A stretch of DNA of 53,387 nucleotides, from assembly GCA_947175575.1 (NCBI GenBank), contig CAMWNG010000006.1:1-53387 (forward strand), written 5' to 3'. The notes beneath the pieces are model-generated. The model was not told where the DNA came from, searched no databases, and saw nothing but the letters and a program-made list of their open reading frames with translations. The DNA is from an uncultured Bacteroidales bacterium. GTDB lineage: Bacteria; Bacteroidota; Bacteroidia; Bacteroidales; Muribaculaceae. Both the position numbers and the translations under genes were made by a program. Positions 288 to 39,206 of this stretch are shown in pieces (position 1 is the first letter of the stretch; each line of letters begins with the position of its first letter).

Positions 288-384
288 TGCTACGGAACGT
301 GGTTAAAATATGGGTACTTTCAGTATAACGCAGGGAATGTTAAAATAGTTTATACGATGCCAATTATTTTTCAATTTTTTTATG

Positions 385-392
385 TACCTTTG
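385..392 (+). promoter_or_regulatory. Bacteroidota -7 promoter box for the TolB-like/amidase pair
   Basis: TACCTTTG matches the TAnnTTTG consensus exactly and lies 54 nt upstream of the ATG at 447, in an AT-rich stretch. No clean TTG lies at the expected -33 distance. Confidence 0.6.
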
Positions 393-446
393 CGTGCATA
401 AAACCTTGAACAACTATTTTACTAACACTATACCCTAAAAACAACC

Positions 447-1355
447 ATGAAAAAAGCATTTCTGACCCTTGCGCTGGCAGCGGTGGCCGCCGGTGCGTCA
501 GGACAGGTGGTGCAAGTGGCAAGCGTGGAAAAAGTGTCTCTCCCTCAGGAGATTGCCGTGAATATTCCGCGTGTCAGCCCCGACGGCTCTTTTGTCGTCT
601 TGTCCACCAACACAGACAACGCACTCTATCGTGTAAGCCTCGCCGGAGGCTCCCCGGAGCTGGTAGCCACATCAGGTTCGGCTCTCGAACTCGCCTTCTC
701 TCCGGACAGCAAGGCCGTTGTTTTCAAATCGTCGACCACCGACCGCAACCGTTTGCGCTATTACCATGTGCAGTCTGTTGACCTCGAAAAAGGCACATCC
801 CGCGCCCTTACATCCAAGAAGCGCCACTGTGCATCCTTCTCTGTTTCTCCTGCCGGCCAACTCTCTCTCGCCGACGGCGGCAAGTTCTCCGCCCGCAGTT
901 TCTCAGGGGCAAAGGTCAAATCCGCACGTCCCGTCGTAGGAATCAACCGCGGACATCTTGAAATCACCACTCCTGACGGCCGTACACGAAATCTCGACCC
1001 CCAGGGCCGGGGTAGCTACCTGTGGCCTTCGGTAAGTCCGGACGGCACAAAGATTGTCTACTATCTCTCCGGTCACGGCTGCTATGTCTGTGACATCGAC
1101 GGTTCTAATGTACGAGAACTCGGATTCGTCCACGCTCCGCAATGGCTCGGAGACAATGCCGTTATCGGATGTCAGGATCAGGATAACGGCGTTTACGTCA
1201 CATCCTCCTCGATCGTGGCCGCTGACCTTGACGGCACCATCCAGACCCTCACCGATCCCTCGCTGCTGGGTATGAATCCCTCTGCATCGGCCGATGGCAA
1301 GACTATCGCTTTCGCCTCCGCTGACGGCAAACTTTATCGCATCAACCTTAAGTAA
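447..1355 (+). CDS. TolB-like WD40/PD40 beta-propeller exported protein
   Basis: 302 residues. An N-terminal signal peptide (basic MKK, then an Ala/Leu-rich core ending near GASGQ) sends it to the periplasm or beyond. The rest is a run of PD40-type propeller blades, visible as repeated S-P-D-G/S phrases: RVSPDGSFVV near residue 43, AFSPDSKAVVF near 84, SVSPDGTKIVYY near 195 and SADGKTIAFASADGKLY near 284. Such blades bind proteins or glycans in TolB and related proteins. It lies 9 bp upstream of the large amidase gene and is probably co-transcribed, so a role in the cell envelope is likely. It lacks the TolB N-terminal domain, so it is not a true TolB. Confidence 0.85.
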   Translation: MKKAFLTLALAAVAAGASGQVVQVASVEKVSLPQEIAVNIPRVSPDGSFVVLSTNTDNALYRVSLAGGSPELVATSGSALELAFSPDSKAVVFKSSTTDRNRLRYYHVQSVDLEKGTSRALTSKKRHCASFSVSPAGQLSLADGGKFSARSFSGAKVKSARPVVGINRGHLEITTPDGRTRNLDPQGRGSYLWPSVSPDGTKIVYYLSGHGCYVCDIDGSNVRELGFVHAPQWLGDNAVIGCQDQDNGVYVTSSSIVAADLDGTIQTLTDPSLLGMNPSASADGKTIAFASADGKLYRINLK

Positions 1356-1364
1356 ACATTCGAT

Positions 1365-4300
1365 ATGAAATTCAGATATATCGCCGCCGCGGCAGTGATG
1401 GCCTGTGCATCGCTCGCTTCACAGGCGGCCAAGACGCCCTCCGAACTACGCGTCTACATCAACCCCGGTCACGGTTCATGGACAGGCAACGACCGTCCCA
1501 TGCAGGTGATAGGCAAGCCGGCCTATTCATCCACCAATACAGATACCACCGGTTTCTTCGAATCCAACACCGACCTCATCAAGGGTTTCGGTATGCTTGA
1601 GAAACTCATCGAAATGGGCATGCCGTTCGACCGCACTCTCAACCAGACCGGCGAACGATGGGAAATCGGGGCCGCCCGCGACCTCTCGCAGAACATCGTC
1701 ATGAGCCGTGTGAAAAACGGTCCCTTCGAAGACAATAACACCACCTCGTCGCCCAATTACATGCAGTATAACCGCAACCTGCTTGAAATCGCCACCGAGG
1801 TTGAACATAACGAGTTCGACATCTTCGTATCCATTCACTCCAACGCTGCCACTGTAGGCTCTACGGTCAACTATCACCTGTTCATGTACCGCGGCCATAA
1901 CGGCAAGGACGGCGTGCTCGCTCCCGGTTCATACGAAATGGCCGAAGCAGCTGCCAAATATTCGTTTATCAACGAGCATGCCGCATGGTCAGCCAACTAT
2001 CCCTACATCAACGGCGATATCGACTTCATGACTTCCGACAAGAAAGGCACATATAACGATCTCGGCTATTACGGCTACCTCGGTGTGCTCAAGCACGGCA
2101 CACCCGGCTATCTTGTTGAAGGCTATTTCCACACATATCTGCCCGCCACACACCGTGGCATGAACTTCGATGTCGACGCAGTCGAAGGCATGCAGTATGC
2201 CCGCGGTGTGGCAGAATACTTCGAGTTTGAAAAACGCGACGCCACCGGTGAAATTTACGGCATCGTACGCGACCGCCACGAACGCTTCGCCCATCAGCTC
2301 TACAAACCCAATCCCGCCACCGACGACATCTACAAGCCCCTCAACGGCGTGAAAGCAGTGCTCATGCAGGACGGCGAAAAGGTAGCCGAATACACCACCG
2401 ACGAATTCTACAACGGCGCGTTCGTGTTCACCGGACTCAAACCCGGCAAATACACCGTTGAGGTCGAACATCCCGACTACAAGTCAGCCGATCCTCTCGA
2501 AGTGGAAGTGAAGGCCGGTGCCACATCTTATCCCAAGATGTTCATCGAGGCTGCCGACTATGTGGAGCCTGACAACGTGGCTTCCAACTATCCCGACCCG
2601 GCTGTCAAATACGGCGCTCTCTCCGCAACTGACAACTATGAGGTCGCAACCCTTATCGAGGACGCAGAGATTCCCGCCCTCGACGGCCTGACCGTACGCC
2701 GTGTTATCGCACGCGACGGACGTCTCTATATACTGGCTCTCGACAAGCCCATCGAATATGCGGCAGCGATTCCCGTCGACGAGCAGGCCAAGGCCACTAT
2801 CCTCGTCTATGACATCAAGAAACAGGAAGTTGTCGCTACCGTAAGCACTGAAGGTGCAGCCGGGTCCATCGCTCCGATCAGCGACATCCAGCTCGCCGCC
2901 GACGGAGTGCTTCTGGCATGCAACGCCACCAAGAACCAGTACGACGCCTCAAATGTCCAGGAAGGCGACGCCGGCCGCGGCACCTTCCACATTTATAAAT
3001 GGGAGAACGATAAGGACGGGCTGCCTGCAGGCGATCCCGAATCCTGGATTTCCACCACCTACTCGGGTCTCTGGTACCGTGCATATCCCACACGTTTCGT
3101 TTACTCAGGCACAACTCAGGAAGGTAAGTTTGTCATTCCCATGCCTACCATCACCGGTCCCGCTTACTCCACCCGCGCCGTTGCCGGCACAGTGCTTGAC
3201 GGCAATCCTCAGGTGGTTGACGGCATCAAGCCTTCTGTAGCTTATAATACCGGAGATGCCGGTGCCGACCTCAATCTCTTCGCATCTCCCCTCTCGGAGG
3301 ATGAAGCCCTCGTTATCGACAGCAAGAACGCCATCGGCAGCTGGAATTTCAACACTCCTTACGAATTTATCGAGAAAGGTAACGACCTGCTCAAGGGTGT
3401 CTCGGGAGCATCTTCACTCATGCGCTACGCCGGTCATTCCTATGTGGTGAAAGCCCTCGCCGACGGTACACTCGAACTTGTAGACATCACCGACGGTCTG
3501 GCCAAGGCTGTTGCTACCGGCATCACCTTCCAGGCAGCCCCCGTTGCCGGTGAAGTTGCGTCCGTGGCCACTGCCGCCGAAACTCTCGCCGACCGCGATG
3601 TCATCACCGGTGCCGTGACCGACGCCTGGTTCAACCTCTACCTGCTCCGCGACGGACATCTTTCGGCATACACCACCAAGGGTCAGGCAAAAGCCGACCG
3701 CTGTGCGCCGATGGCTTATGACCTCAACCAGAATTTGATCTATACGGTCAACGAAAAGAGCCTTTCGTTCCGGTTCAAGGTTACGGCAGACGCTCCTTCG
3801 GCAACCCTCGTTTTCACCAACTCTGAAAACTCCGCCGATGTGCTTGAAGTCGAAGTCGGTCCTGTCAAAGCCGGCGAACTTTACGACATCGATTCCGAAC
3901 CCTTCCTCAAGGATGTCCTCGATATGGGTCTCTGCAATTGGGCTGTGAAGGTCGAAGGATATCCCGTGAACGTGGCCGGTACCTATTATACCGATCCCGA
4001 AGCCAAACGCACAGCCGGCTCGCGTGGCGGCGTTGTCGCTTTCACCGATACCGAGAACCCCGAAACTGTCGGCATGGTGGCCGTGTCCCACAGCTACGCC
4101 GCAGGCTTTGATGTCTTCGGCGGCGACGGTGCCAAACTTGCATCCAACGTACACTCCGGCGCTCCCTTCGTTACCACCAAGATCAACAGTGCCATCCGCG
4201 GCGGTGAATTCTGCGGACGCGCAGTGTTCATCGACTGGTCGGATGCTAACGCAGGCATCTACGCCCTTGATCCTCTGAAAGCCAACGATCCTATCGTGCA

Positions 4301-11603: not shown

Positions 11604-11634
11604 CACAGCGCCACTGCGCTTTGTGTTACCGATC

Positions 11635-13251
11635 ATGAAACTGAAAAAACTACTTTTAGGCGATGAAGCCTTGGCCTTGGGTGCCATAAACGCCGGTCTG
11701 TCCGGTGCCTATGCATATCCCGGCACCCCCTCGACTGAAATTCTTGAGTTTGTACAGCAAAACCCGGTTGCCCGCGAAAGAGCCATCCATTCCCATTGGT
11801 CGTCGAATGAAAAGACTGCCGTCGAGGAAGCGCTCGGCATGTCGTTCTGCGGACGCCGTTCGATGGTGTCCATGAAGCACGTGGGACTTAATGTGGCGGC
11901 TGATCCGTTTGTGAATTCTGCGATGACCGGTGCCAACGGCGGCATGCTCGTTATTTCTGCTGACGATCCTTCGATGCACTCGTCTCAGAACGAGCAGGAC
12001 TCACGTTTTTATGCCTCTTTCGCTCTCCTGCCGGTGCTTGAACCACGGTCTCAGCAGCAGGCTTACGATATGGCCGCATACGGTTTCGCGCTCAGTGAGG
12101 AATACGGCGTTCCGGTCATGGTGCGCATGGTGACCCGTCTGGCTCACTCTCGCGCCAATGTGGAGATCGATTCCGATGCCGCTCCTGAAAACGCGTTGCA
12201 TTATCCTGAACACACAGCCCAATGGGTCCTTATGCCCGGCAATTCCCGCCGCCGCTACCCGCGCCTTATCGAGACTTATAACGCCCTCGCCGAGGCGGGT
12301 GAACATTCGCCTTTCAACACCTTCAGTCCGGGCTCTGACCGACGTATAGGCATACTGGCGTCGGGCATCGCCGCCAACTATGTCGAGGAATGTTTCGACG
12401 GCGCATGTCCCTTCCCGATGGTGGTGATCGGACAGTATCCTCTCCCGGTCGGCATGATCGGACGTCTGGCCGATTCCTGCGACGCCGTGCTGGTGGTCGA
12501 GGAAGGGCAACCGGTTATCGAGAAGGAGCTGCGCGGATTGCTTGACCGCGGAGTTCGCGTCTACGGCAAACTCGATGGCCATCTGCCCCGCACGGGCGAG
12601 CTGACACCCGATTCCGTGGCCGCCTGTCTCGCCTCACTTGTGCATGACGTTGCTCCGGACTTCGCGCTCCCCGCGGCCGTAGAGACCGATAATATGGTTA
12701 TGGCGCGTCCGCCGGCTCTCTGTCAGGGCTGCGGACACCGCGACGTCTATGCGGCTCTCAACGCTGCCTTGGCTCAGTATGAGAATGCCAAGGTATTCGG
12801 CGATATAGGTTGCTACACATTGGGCTGGCTCGCACCCTTCAACGCCATCGACACCGTGGTGGATATGGGCGCCAGCATCACCATGGCCAAAGGCGCCGCC
12901 GATGCGGGGCAGCATCCTGTCGTGGCCGTTATCGGCGACTCGACTTTCACCCATTCGGGAATGACAGGACTCCTTGACGCAGTAAATGAAAACTCGCCTG
13001 TGAGTATCATTATTTCCGACAACCTCACCACAGGCATGACCGGCGGACAAGACTCGCAGGGCACCGGTAAGCTTGAACAGATATGTCTTGGTCTCGGTGT
13101 GAGTCCCGACCATCTGCACACAATCGACTCCTTGCCGCGGACTGTTGCCGAAATGCAGGCTCTTTTCGCTGCGGAGTTAGAATATCAGGGCGTCAGCGTA
13201 ATCATCGCCCGCCGTGAGTGTATCCAGACGGCCCGCCGTCACAAGAAGTAA
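11635..13251 (+). CDS. iorA: Indolepyruvate:ferredoxin oxidoreductase alpha subunit, lacking the ferredoxin domain
   Basis: 538 residues from the ATG at 11635. The N-terminal half is the transketolase-like pyrimidine domain (AYPGTPSTEILEF near residue 25, STEKTAVEEA-like region near 60). The C-terminal half is the thiamine-diphosphate domain with CQGCGHRDVY near 362, GDIGCYTLG near 388 and GDSTFTHSGMTGLLDAVNEN near 435. With IorB it oxidatively decarboxylates aryl-pyruvates (indolepyruvate, phenylpyruvate) to aryl-acetyl-CoA, or runs in reverse. Archaeal IorA has a C-terminal pair of [4Fe-4S] cysteine motifs. Here the protein ends at IIARRECIQTARRHKK and lacks them. It is the first gene of a four-gene operon. 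iorB follows after 211 bp that contain a repeat element. Confidence 0.92.
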   Translation: MKLKKLLLGDEALALGAINAGLSGAYAYPGTPSTEILEFVQQNPVARERAIHSHWSSNEKTAVEEALGMSFCGRRSMVSMKHVGLNVAADPFVNSAMTGANGGMLVISADDPSMHSSQNEQDSRFYASFALLPVLEPRSQQQAYDMAAYGFALSEEYGVPVMVRMVTRLAHSRANVEIDSDAAPENALHYPEHTAQWVLMPGNSRRRYPRLIETYNALAEAGEHSPFNTFSPGSDRRIGILASGIAANYVEECFDGACPFPMVVIGQYPLPVGMIGRLADSCDAVLVVEEGQPVIEKELRGLLDRGVRVYGKLDGHLPRTGELTPDSVAACLASLVHDVAPDFALPAAVETDNMVMARPPALCQGCGHRDVYAALNAALAQYENAKVFGDIGCYTLGWLAPFNAIDTVVDMGASITMAKGAADAGQHPVVAVIGDSTFTHSGMTGLLDAVNENSPVSIIISDNLTTGMTGGQDSQGTGKLEQICLGLGVSPDHLHTIDSLPRTVAEMQALFAAELEYQGVSVIIARRECIQTARRHKK

Positions 13252-13268: not shown

Positions 13269-13462
13269 TAAGTAACTCTTAAAAATTAGCTGATATGAAT
13301 TTGAGCAGGATTGATGCGGGAATTTCTTCGTTGAGAGAAGGAGTGTAGCGAGCTACACGACTGAACGAAAGGAAGAAAGGCTCCATCAAGACAATCAAAG
13401 GCATATCAGCCCGAAGGGTTACAAAAAAAGCCATAATATAAACTAATTTTGAAGAGTTACTT
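13269..13462. repeat. Intergenic inverted-repeat element A with a structured core, between iorA and iorB
   Basis: The element is bounded by imperfect inverted repeats of about 20 nt: AAGTAACTCTTAAAAATTAG at the left and CTAATTTTGAAGAGTTACTT at the right. Its middle holds a core (13337-13369) with the perfect stem GTGTAGC/GCTACAC, enclosed by a second stem TTCGTT/AACGAA and an internal loop GAAGGA / GACTG. A diverged copy of this core lies on the minus strand at 39022-39055. The right arm ends at the iorB start codon, so the element is transcribed with the operon and probably affects iorB translation or message processing. Confidence 0.7.
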
Positions 13463-14077
13463 ATGACAGTCAACATGATACTTGCCGGGGTAGGGGGACA
13501 GGGCATCTTGTCTATCGCTACTGTTCTGGGCCGTGCGGCCTTGGCTCTCGATCTTAATCTCAAACAGGCCGAAGTTCACGGCATGAGCCAGCGCGGAGGC
13601 GATGTGATGTCGTGCCTGCGCCTCAGCGATGCTCCGATCGCGTCCGACCTGATTCCCGCCGGGAAAGTCGACATGATTGTGGCGATGGAACCCATGGAGG
13701 CCATGCGTTATCTGCCGCAACTCAAACCCGGAGGCGTGGTTATAAGTTCTTCGGAAACGGTGGCCAATGTCCCCGGTTATCCCGAACGCGCTGAGTTGTG
13801 TGACAGACTCGTTTCTCTCGCCCGGACGCATGGGCTGGAGTGTGCCGTTTTTGATGCTGAAAGCCTTGCGCGTGAGGTGGCCTCGCCCCGTTCATCAAAC
13901 ATGGTGCTTCTCGGCGCGGCGGCAGCCTGGCTTCAGCTCCCGGAATATCTTGGCATAGCTCCGCAGGAAATCGAGAACGCCGTTGCAGCCGTGTTCGCGC
14001 CCAAGGGCGAAGCTGTGGTAAAGTCTAACATCGAGGCATTCCGCAAAGGATTGGCCGTAGGTAAAGATTCTCTCTGA
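13463..14077 (+). CDS. iorB: Indolepyruvate:ferredoxin oxidoreductase beta subunit
   Basis: 204 residues, the normal length for IorB. It is the gamma-domain type (POR_gamma) with the start motif ILAGVGGQGI at residues 6-15, KQAEVHGMSQRGGDVMSCLR near 35-54 and AMEPMEAMRYLPQLKPGG near 76-93. It completes the thiamine-diphosphate enzyme with IorA. Its ATG lies directly at the right arm of the repeat element, with no room for a separate promoter outside the element. The aminotransferase gene starts 8 bp downstream. Confidence 0.93.
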   Translation: MTVNMILAGVGGQGILSIATVLGRAALALDLNLKQAEVHGMSQRGGDVMSCLRLSDAPIASDLIPAGKVDMIVAMEPMEAMRYLPQLKPGGVVISSSETVANVPGYPERAELCDRLVSLARTHGLECAVFDAESLAREVASPRSSNMVLLGAAAAWLQLPEYLGIAPQEIENAVAAVFAPKGEAVVKSNIEAFRKGLAVGKDSL

Positions 14078-23153: not shown

Positions 23154-23195
23154 GACCCCGTTCCCCGGAATTAACAAATGTCGGGGAACCGGGTC
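23154..23195. repeat. Hairpin element C (GACCCCGTTCC family), probable two-way terminator
   Basis: 42 nt. GACCCCGTTCCCCG pairs with CGGGGAACCGGGTC at 13 of 14 positions. The plus-strand side is followed by TCTAAG and seven T residues, giving a strong terminator for the nucleoside symporter gene. On the minus strand, the element border CTTAGACC supplies the TAG stop codon (23195-23197) of the GntR gene. Read in reverse it matches element D at 25380 at 33 of 42 positions, with an identical loop block ATTTGTTAA. Confidence 0.85.
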
Positions 23196-23557
23196 TAAGA
23201 TTTTTTTGACAGATCTTCGGGGAGGACATCATCGAGTGTGAGTTGCAGACGAGTCATCTCGGCGAAGAATTCCGGGGCTTTCGTCTTGATGAACTCCATC
23301 CGTTGCAGATGCAGGGCGCGCTCGCGGGCGTCTTCGGTCAGAAAATATCCCATGCCGCGGCGTACTTCCATGATGCCGTCGGCCTGCAGGCTCTCATACG
23401 CGCGCAGGACCGTGTGCGCGTTTACCGACATCTGTGCGCCGAGGTCGCGCATGGACGGCACGCGGGCACCGTTTTTCCATTCGCCTTCAAGAATCCGCGC
23501 GCACACATAGTCGGCTATCTGACGATAGATGGGGCGTTCGGCGTGAAACTCCATCAT
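23195..23557 (-). CDS. GntR-family regulator, YtrA-like (short)
   Basis: 120 residues. Residues 8-75 are a winged helix of the GntR type: PIYRQIADYVCARILEGEW, then GARVPSMRDLGAQMSVNAHT and VLRAYESLQADGIMEVRRGM. The remainder is a short helical tail, as in the YtrA subfamily, with no large effector domain. YtrA regulators usually repress the ABC transporter operon they belong to. It is the last gene here, overlapping the membrane-protein gene by ATGA. Its TAG stop codon lies inside hairpin element C. Autorepression of the promoter at 25311-25340 is inferred. Confidence 0.92.
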   Translation of the reverse strand: MMEFHAERPIYRQIADYVCARILEGEWKNGARVPSMRDLGAQMSVNAHTVLRAYESLQADGIMEVRRGMGYFLTEDARERALHLQRMEFIKTKAPEFFAEMTRLQLTLDDVLPEDLSKKS

Positions 23558-25340: not shown

Positions 25341-25379
25341 AATAAATCCGAAAAAAAGTTCCGGACGCCGGAAATTTAA

Positions 25380-25421
25380 GACCCCGTTCCATAATATTTG
25401 TTAAGGCTGGGTAACGGGGTC
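25380..25421. repeat. Hairpin element D (GACCCCGTTCC family)
   Basis: 42 nt. GACCCCGTT pairs with AACGGGGTC (9 bp), continued by CC/GG with a bulge. The loop contains AATATTTGTTAAGGC, matching the arm of the long element B at 38948. The right border GGGTCTAAG contains, on the minus strand, the TAG stop codon (25421-25423) of the neighbouring hypothetical gene. It would terminate that gene before it reaches the ABC operon promoter. Confidence 0.8.
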
Positions 25422-38868: not shown

Positions 38869-38947
38869 AACAAACAGCCCCATCCGGAGCGCAAAATGTG
38901 CGAAAAGATATTAAAAGTATGCGGGCGGTAGCCGGCGTCTTCGCGTT

Positions 38948-39125
38948 CTTAGACCCCGTTCCTCAATATTAGTTAAGACCCGGTATATCCCAAGCCAAAC
39001 GATAAGTTACAAAATGCCTTGTTCTTCAGTCACGTAGCTACGGCTACGCTCCTTCATCACAAGACAAAAATCACTCAGAGATATGCGACCCCGGCCTTAA
39101 CAAGTATTGGGGAACGGTGTCTTAA
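38948..39125. repeat. Element B: 178-bp inverted-repeat element with structured core
   Basis: The arms (CTTAGACCCCGTTCC at the left, its reverse complement at the right with two changes) agree at about 28 of 35 paired positions and match the short hairpins C and D. The loop, read on the minus strand, holds at 39055-39022 the core GAAGGAGCGTAGC / AGCTACGTGACTGAA, a diverged copy of the core in element A at 13337. A 16-codon open frame over the core (MKERSRSY...) is not conserved in element A. The element fills most of the 468-bp gap between divergent nifJ and porU, downstream of the nifJ promoter elements. No porU promoter was recognised in the 81 bp that remain before porU. Confidence 0.75.
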
Positions 39126-39206
39126 CAATTATTATGGATATCAGGCCGGAATATCGGACAATATCGGAAGTCATCTTACGTTATAAGTGTGTAAAGCTAC
39201 GTATAC

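Follow-up and report, generated by a model that had tools for sequence, protein, structure and literature searches.

In the 53,387 nucleotides of the window, the whole stretch of DNA analysed here, which comes from an uncultured Bacteroidales bacterium of the family Muribaculaceae, two separate segments on opposite strands can be folded around a similar core. The original prediction described these cores as a structured RNA or DNA motif, mobile or modular, that matched no named family, and the locus raises the question of what carries the cores, of whether their sequence or their fold is under selection, and of the nucleic acid in which the fold works. In this work we show that the two segments, elements A and B, belong to two families of MITEs, small transposons that lack a transposase, and that both families share a hairpin domain of about 100 nt; no transposase is present in either window copy. 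These results go beyond the earlier description, given that A and B are transposons, that the domain is about 100 nt and not about 30 nt long, and that its parents are insertion sequences of the IS5 type.

Results

Elements A and B in the window

The two cores lie where they had been placed and pair as described (13337-13365 of the plus strand in A, 39025-39055 of the minus strand in B). The inner helix is GTGTAGC/GCTACAC in A and GCGTAGC/GCTACGT in B; its second pair is T-A in A and C-G in B, a compensatory change, and its first pair is G-C in A and a G-T wobble in B. Outer helices that differ in sequence between A and B, and an internal loop common to both, are also present in the sequence.

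Element A is a 195-bp MITE with one hairpin that occupies positions 13269..13463 of the plus strand, as judged from its sequence, from repeated copies with the same ends and from relatives free of the insert; its right end had been put at 13462, one base short of the true end. The element is bounded by a left terminal inverted repeat at 13269..13289 (TAAGTAACTCTTAAAAATTAG) and a right one at 13443..13463 (CTAATTTTGAAGAGTTACTTA), both given on the plus strand, and the conserved hairpin domain extends over 13299..13399 of the same strand (positions 1-101 of covariance model R1, 83.7 bits). Core A (13337..13365) consists of GAAGGA, one strand of a 7-bp helix, a loop, the other strand and GACTGAA, and in it two tandem G.A mismatches flank an A-U and a G-C pair. 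The predicted RNA fold of 13269-13462 has an energy of -71.5 kcal/mol, against a mean of -33.3 in 200 shuffled sequences (z -11.3). TA is found at both ends of 9 of 9 family A copies whose two ends are visible, where it is not separable from the repeat itself.

Element A is located between two co-directional genes of an operon similar to those for indolepyruvate/pyruvate:ferredoxin oxidoreductase; the upstream gene (11623-13251) encodes POR_N and TPP_enzyme_C domains and the downstream gene (13463-14077) a POR domain. The last base of the element is the A of the downstream ATG (13463), and thus the sequence just upstream of the second gene is MITE-derived. In a genome of the same genus (G032) the matching oxidoreductase genes are only a few bases apart, and no 195-bp insert was found at this site in any of the five relatives inspected (G032, G022, G030, G005 and G004). 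The right repeat (13443-13463) contains TAATTTTG, which fits the Bacteroides -7 promoter consensus TAnnTTTG; judging from this sequence, the downstream gene (start at 13463) could be provided with a promoter by element A.

Element B (38949..39124, minus strand) represents the second MITE family in a short and damaged form, with TAA at both ends, a hairpin-side terminal inverted repeat at 39097..39124 (TAAGACACCGTTCCCCAATACTTGTTAA) and the opposite one at 38949..38976 (TTAACTAATATTGAGGAACGGGGTCTAA), both on the minus strand. Its hairpin domain is partial (39015..39066, minus strand; model positions 28-77, 40.2 bits) and includes core B at 39025..39055 of the same strand (GAAGGAGCGTAGCCGTAGCTACGTGACTGAA). 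The element sits between divergent genes for a pyruvate:ferredoxin oxidoreductase and a peptidase C25, and the minus strand of the region 38940-39140 is predicted to fold as RNA with -71.8 kcal/mol (z -5.7 with respect to shuffled sequences). In the B family, matching TNA ends were observed in five of the seven copies whose two ends are visible (L005, L008, L015, L018 and L020, and not L002 or L012). Weak matches to the B terminal repeat at 23179-23198 (+, 3 mismatches) and 25377-25396 (-, 2 mismatches) of the window are possible B remnants.

The terminal inverted repeats, the TNA or TA ends and the empty A site in five relatives bear out the proposed mobility. The arms outside the cores had been called unrelated; this stands for their sequences, which differ, and fails for their layout, given that both follow one common architecture whose outermost parts are the transposon terminal inverted repeats.

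Copies and distribution of the domain

The original prediction expected further copies, and the covariance model R1 gave 43 matches in the genome of the window, that is, dozens and not none. The exact pattern GAAGGAGYGTAGC, a core half-pattern, occurs 24 times in this 2.36-Mb genome and 0 times read backwards; the B terminal repeat (up to 3 mismatches) is found at 74 places, with 0 in the backward control. Contigs of this genome break in or beside the hairpin at L001, L013, L019, L022 and L023, so its copy numbers are probably lower bounds.

R1 matches were detected in 22 of 38 sampled genomes of the family, the own genome included, and genome G006 has at least 100 (100 of the 106 candidates scored). 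The loose pattern GAAGGA, 12-24 bases of any kind and GACTGAA matched in 37 of 59 family genomes, many of these matches being due to chance, since backward controls match too, and the pattern itself requiring the loop; in paired matches, differing stems flank the unchanged loop. A mismatch-tolerant pattern gave 3 places, fewer than the 5 obtained when it was read backwards, although one of the 3 (L030) is a genuine element, and a pattern without the loop gave no matches. Under strict filters, a draw from the order yielded matches in 11 of 247 genomes, from the own family and eight other families, with 16 candidates scored per genome and the outer matches partly weak (E up to 5e-4). In a draw of 198 genomes from the phylum, with the same kind of filters and 20 candidates scored per genome, the only match was the own genome, and the domain was not seen outside the order in this draw. 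A search for phage carriage with one core pattern gave 0 exact matches in viral_contigs. At one place (L155/L161; G461 contig 28, 72486-72845) a stretch of 360 bases holds three R1 matches of the same strand, two of them overlapping, and these are thus arranged in tandem or nested, unlike the inward pairs seen elsewhere.

Covariation of the fold

The fold was analyzed on alignment A1, a nearly gap-free MAFFT alignment that was not fitted to a structure model and that contains 18 representatives, among them three from family B and another two that are alike. RNAalifold predicted 30 pairs, of which 24 have changed on both sides, some representatives sharing a family. The larger alignment included 106 matches from 81 loci chosen for diversity, with 104 distinct sequences; these, like the sequences of the 59-sequence and 23-pair analyses described below, were found by and aligned to the model, which favours the expected strand and pairs. 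Standard pairs fill 91.1% of the paired cells in the 104 distinct sequences and 61.9% when shuffled. The covariation score is 0.768, against 0.223 for shuffled alignments and at most 0.166 for slid versions, and 0 of 500 shuffles reach it; weak among the five covariation measures is the number of pairs with two-sided changes, 28 of 30, which 22 of 500 shuffles attain. Most helix changes proved to be compensatory. The stem and apical-loop sequences differ between families. Farther from the apex, columns 18-25 and 126-133 of alignment A3 form another internal loop that is conserved.

No match to Rfam was obtained in the window at the gathering score, in agreement with the earlier statement that no named family applies; when 12 element loci were searched with E up to 1, two chance-level matches to snoRNA families appeared, far below the cut-off. 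The window has no tRNA, and literature searches found no description of the motif.

The internal loop is formed by two tandem G.A mismatches around standard pairs that covary and whose number varies too. Among 59 sequences of less than 85% identity, 30 have GAAGGA/GACTGA and 13 have GAGGGA/GACCGA, and thus the two standard pairs between the tandem mismatches covary; two sequences have three pairs there (GAAGCGA or GAAGTGA with GAGCTGA) and one has a single pair (GAGGA/GACGA). In 3 of the 59 the inner mismatch has changed jointly from GA/GA to GC/AA, the kind of change expected for non-canonical pairs of RNA, and the other ten differ otherwise. The commonest pair beside the tandem G.A is G.U (56 of 104 rows). 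In the most abundant MITE family of G006, with about 40 places (L283, L288 and L294-L301), the loop is mostly GAAGAA with GCCTGAA, L283 and L295 keeping one side of the inner G.A; the loop, elsewhere conserved, has drifted in this family, and the inner G.A pair is therefore not indispensable. In the kink-turn, a three-nucleotide bulge adjoins two tandem sheared G.A pairs; here tandem G.A mismatches usually flank one to three standard pairs, and no fixed three-nucleotide bulge was seen in the alignment.

Strand of the fold

In the same 59 sequences G.U pairs number 106 and A.C pairs 25, and in 58 of 59 the strand with GAAGGA has the more stable fold of the two (mean -41.8 kcal/mol, vs -29.3 for its complement). 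One strand is thus selected, as RNA or as single-stranded DNA, and not a cruciform, which would give G.U and A.C about equally and is disfavoured by these counts. G.T wobbles occur in DNA too; the strand test opposes the cruciform and cannot separate RNA from single-stranded DNA. A choice of copies by model score is biased towards paired ones, and copies from G006 were therefore picked by DNA similarity; over the whole element, 7 single changes led to G.U and 7 to A.C in one family, and 16 and 5, respectively, in the other.

Parent insertion sequences

Contig 56 of the own genome carries an element of about 1.15 kb (L167) with an intact reading frame for an IS5-type transposase (NF033580, transpos_IS5_3, 161.7 bits with a cut-off of 110; Pfam DDE_Tnp_1 and DUF4096), which is flanked by hairpins at 367-469 (+) and 1355-1457 (-). 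A total of 55 relatives of the transposase were found in named genomes, the nearest being records of Muribaculaceae and Porphyromonadaceae. The eight that are titled Muribaculaceae or Porphyromonadaceae all carry hairpins, at both ends in four (L173, L178, L179 and L188), and are not independent, L174, L176 and L188 coming from one genome and L177 and L178 from another; hairpins were found in 0 of the 47 other, distant relatives. In 30 selected genomes, 14 of 30 loci that match NF033580 have hairpins (L278 and L282 are the same element). Eight loci are above the NF033580 cut-off: L257, which is the same element as L167, and L259 have both hairpins; one was detected in L256; the single hairpin of L254 faces outward and is perhaps part of another element; and L253, L255, L258 and L271 show no model match beside the transposase.

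Altogether, an IS5 transposase, or what remains of it, is flanked by two inward-facing hairpins in L167, L173, L178, L179, L188, L257 and L259. Each terminal inverted repeat is followed, on its inner side, by one hairpin, whose foldable strand runs from the element end towards the middle. Terminal inverted repeats are present at both ends in the nine A copies and the seven B copies whose two ends are visible, and in 11 of 17 transposase loci, including all the hairpin elements tested except L175, whose contig starts inside the transposase gene. Elements with hairpins (L173, L179, L256, L257 and L259) measure 1.08-1.27 kb, whereas the relatives L255 and L258, which have none, measure about 0.9 kb, so that the domain looks like a module added at each end. 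The transposase tree, which has weak branch support and several partial rows, groups the hairpin elements (2 changes vs 6.4 when shuffled, with 1 of 500 shuffles as low). These results show that the parents are IS5-type insertion sequences of about 1.1-1.3 kb, a putative assignment for family A. No IS5_3 match was found in seven MITE-rich genomes (G006, G007, G024, G030, G031, G035 and G036).

Comparison of the two ends of single elements

A second MITE kind (L303, L328, L340 and similar ones) carries two inward hairpins some 60-65 bases apart. The left and right hairpins of one element were compared in the 23 inward pairs of A3 (22 places, L075 and L340 being one). These pairs come from insertion sequences, from copies with deletions and from MITEs with two hairpins, and eight are of family B. 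The stems are identical at 609 of 1377 positions (44%); the outer 30 nt agree at 535 of 690 in register (78%), or at 593 of 690 (86%) when shifts of up to 2 bases are allowed, with poor outer repeats (8/30) in L093 and L096. At 296 of 690 pairs both sides have changed between left and right and are still paired. In a subset of 14 elements the corresponding values are 370/840 for the stems, 378/420 (90%) for the outer 30 nt and 176/420 for the double changes, and pairing is equal at both ends (392 of 420 cells on the left, 385 of 420 on the right). The stems have diverged and the pairing has been kept; the two ends have thus changed their sequence while holding the same inward-facing fold. Given the covariation, the strand asymmetry and this comparison within single elements, we conclude that selection acts on the fold of one strand and not on its sequence. 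The domain is accordingly structured, and it is modular as had been proposed, since several MITE families, as well as the left and right ends of insertion sequences, have the same fold with different stems.

Retention without the transposase and placement

Two G006 families were used to compare the hairpin with the spacer, which is A- and T-rich and aligns less well, and this may inflate the contrast between the two. In the 12-copy family (the nearly full-length copies among 42 matches, one without its right end) the hairpin has 26 events in 106 sites (0.25) and the spacer 32 in 51 (0.63; p 1.5e-4); in the 30-copy family (the best 30 of 43) the values are 46 in 121 (0.38) and 21 in 30 (0.70; p 0.019), and the core itself, at 0.50, is more variable than the whole hairpin. 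The left terminal repeat is the least variable part (2 events in 28 sites and 4 in 18, respectively). These data, from two families of one genome, support that the hairpin is kept in copies without transposase, and its role is therefore not merely the regulation of transposase translation.

Placement was examined for 93 elements with usable flanks, taken from high-scoring matches in eight genomes, genes being crude open reading frames of at least 90 aa. The 72 single-hairpin elements lie in 32 divergent gaps, in 4 convergent gaps and in co-directional gaps with 23 in sense and 13 in antisense orientation; no preference for gene starts is seen among the 21 elements with two hairpins, of which 2 lie in divergent, 6 in convergent and 13 in co-directional gaps. 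This distribution is suggestive of a preference of single-hairpin copies for gene starts.

Discussion

The fold most likely works as RNA in cis on host transcripts that enter the element, a reading to which we assign a probability of roughly 0.4. A host transcript entering from the hairpin-bearing side would first form a rod with stacked G.A mismatches, and this rod might be bound by a host factor or might shield the transcript from Rho or from nucleases; insertions beside or between genes, for instance that of A between the oxidoreductase genes, would hence be tolerated and persist. The placement of single-hairpin copies, with 32 in divergent and 4 in convergent gaps, counts for this reading. 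Against it, relief of polarity should give an excess of sense orientation in co-directional gaps, and the excess found there is not significant (p 0.13); besides, two-hairpin elements show no gene-start preference. The two G006 families also count against it, one by its equal numbers of single changes to G.U and to A.C, the other by a core that varies more than its hairpin taken as a whole. We tentatively propose that the domain represents an undescribed class of RNA structure, whose stacked G.A loop is recognised by a host factor or by the polymerase and with which the elements insulate themselves or their neighbours. If this is true, insulation on read-through transcripts would underlie the spread to as many as 100 matches per genome.

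The main rival of RNA in cis, possible and in our opinion somewhat less probable, is a single-stranded DNA hairpin in transposition: the strand with its 5' end at the transposon end would fold while the DNA is replicated or strands are exchanged, and would help to bring in the transposase or a host protein, or promote excision. Such a hairpin fits the symmetry of the elements, with the domain at both ends on the inward-reading strand; the role of one strand, suggested by G.U vs A.C; and retention in non-autonomous copies, where cis-acting signals for transposition should matter. However, a protein that reads the ends should hold their sequence, and the outer repeat is kept at 78-86%, whereas the stems are kept at 44%; there are abundant MITE families with just one hairpin, and the IS5_3 transposases L253, L255, L258 and L271 have no adjoining match. 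RNA is also the better fit for the frequent G.U pairs.

The end repeats of IS10 and IS50 limit transposase expression from read-through transcripts. An equivalent 5'-leader structure, merely inherited by the MITEs, would account for the position of the left hairpin in L167, L173, L179 and L259, with the terminal repeat on one side of it and the transposase gene on the other; it is an improbable explanation of the domain, because the right hairpin, located beyond the gene and on the other strand, is equally kept, the gene-less MITE copies keep the hairpin better than the spacer, and a distance of at least some 75 nt separates the left hairpin from the coding match, leaving the gene start uncovered. 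A small RNA acting in trans on transposase or host genes would be compact and strongly folded, as the domain is, and has a precedent in the processed 5' RNA derived from IS200, which regulates host genes according to the account in PMC12594629. It is nevertheless very unlikely, given that stems and apical loops differ by family and that no conserved unpaired stretch of target length was seen there. Finally, imperfect repeats are known to undergo templated repair, to which any long palindrome could be subject; it could keep functionless palindromes and mimic compensation, but this is highly improbable, since it should erase the G.A loops, which are conserved, and leave Watson-Crick pairs, when G.U is four times as common as A.C, and since left and right hairpins of one element share the fold and differ in their stems.

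Among known systems, the elements resemble those of the IS5 family (NF033580) and their MITEs in the transposase match, the terminal inverted repeats and the ends, mostly of 3-bp TNA type, and differ from the relatives of about 0.9 kb (L255, L258) in carrying a covarying domain of about 100 nt inside the ends. NEMIS, ERIC, RUP and YPAl are each known as one sequence family, whereas here one fold recurs across families with different stems, which by description alone sets them apart. They are, like our elements, structured MITEs next to genes; by the account in PMC3733652 they are transcribed and foldable and affect mRNA stability. The same source describes REPs as repeats of 20-40 bp often linked to IS200/IS605-type transposases; the GTAG/CGTC-tagged REPs associated with RAYT are likewise palindromic and intergenic, and cores A and B contain GTAGC (PMC3733652). 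An origin from REP/RAYT was rejected, given that the letters of the GTAG stem vary together with their partners, the conserved part being the loop of GAAGGA/GACTGA type, and that the transposase between the hairpins is of the DDE and not of the tyrosine (Y1) type. In Porphyromonas gingivalis, a related bacterium, BrickBuilt and MITE239/464/700 are also MITEs with terminal repeats of the IS5 type (PMC4596501). As far as that account goes, the stems of BrickBuilt are derived from 23-nt tandem repeats, and BrickBuilt has no BLASTn match outside the species and is described with no shared core, internal loop or covariation, a distinction by description only (PMC4596501).

In the usual view, MITEs are bare transposon ends; here a single-strand fold is selected, not only at the two ends of insertion sequences but even in non-coding copies, and the element therefore seems to gain from the fold itself. 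The comparison of left and right within one element is a clean natural experiment, with kept repeats and with stems that are divergent but equally folded. If the fold works as RNA, it would represent a new class with a testable partner; if it works as single-stranded DNA, it would represent an unexpected step in DDE transposition. Either way, many host genes have the domain in their leader or spacer.
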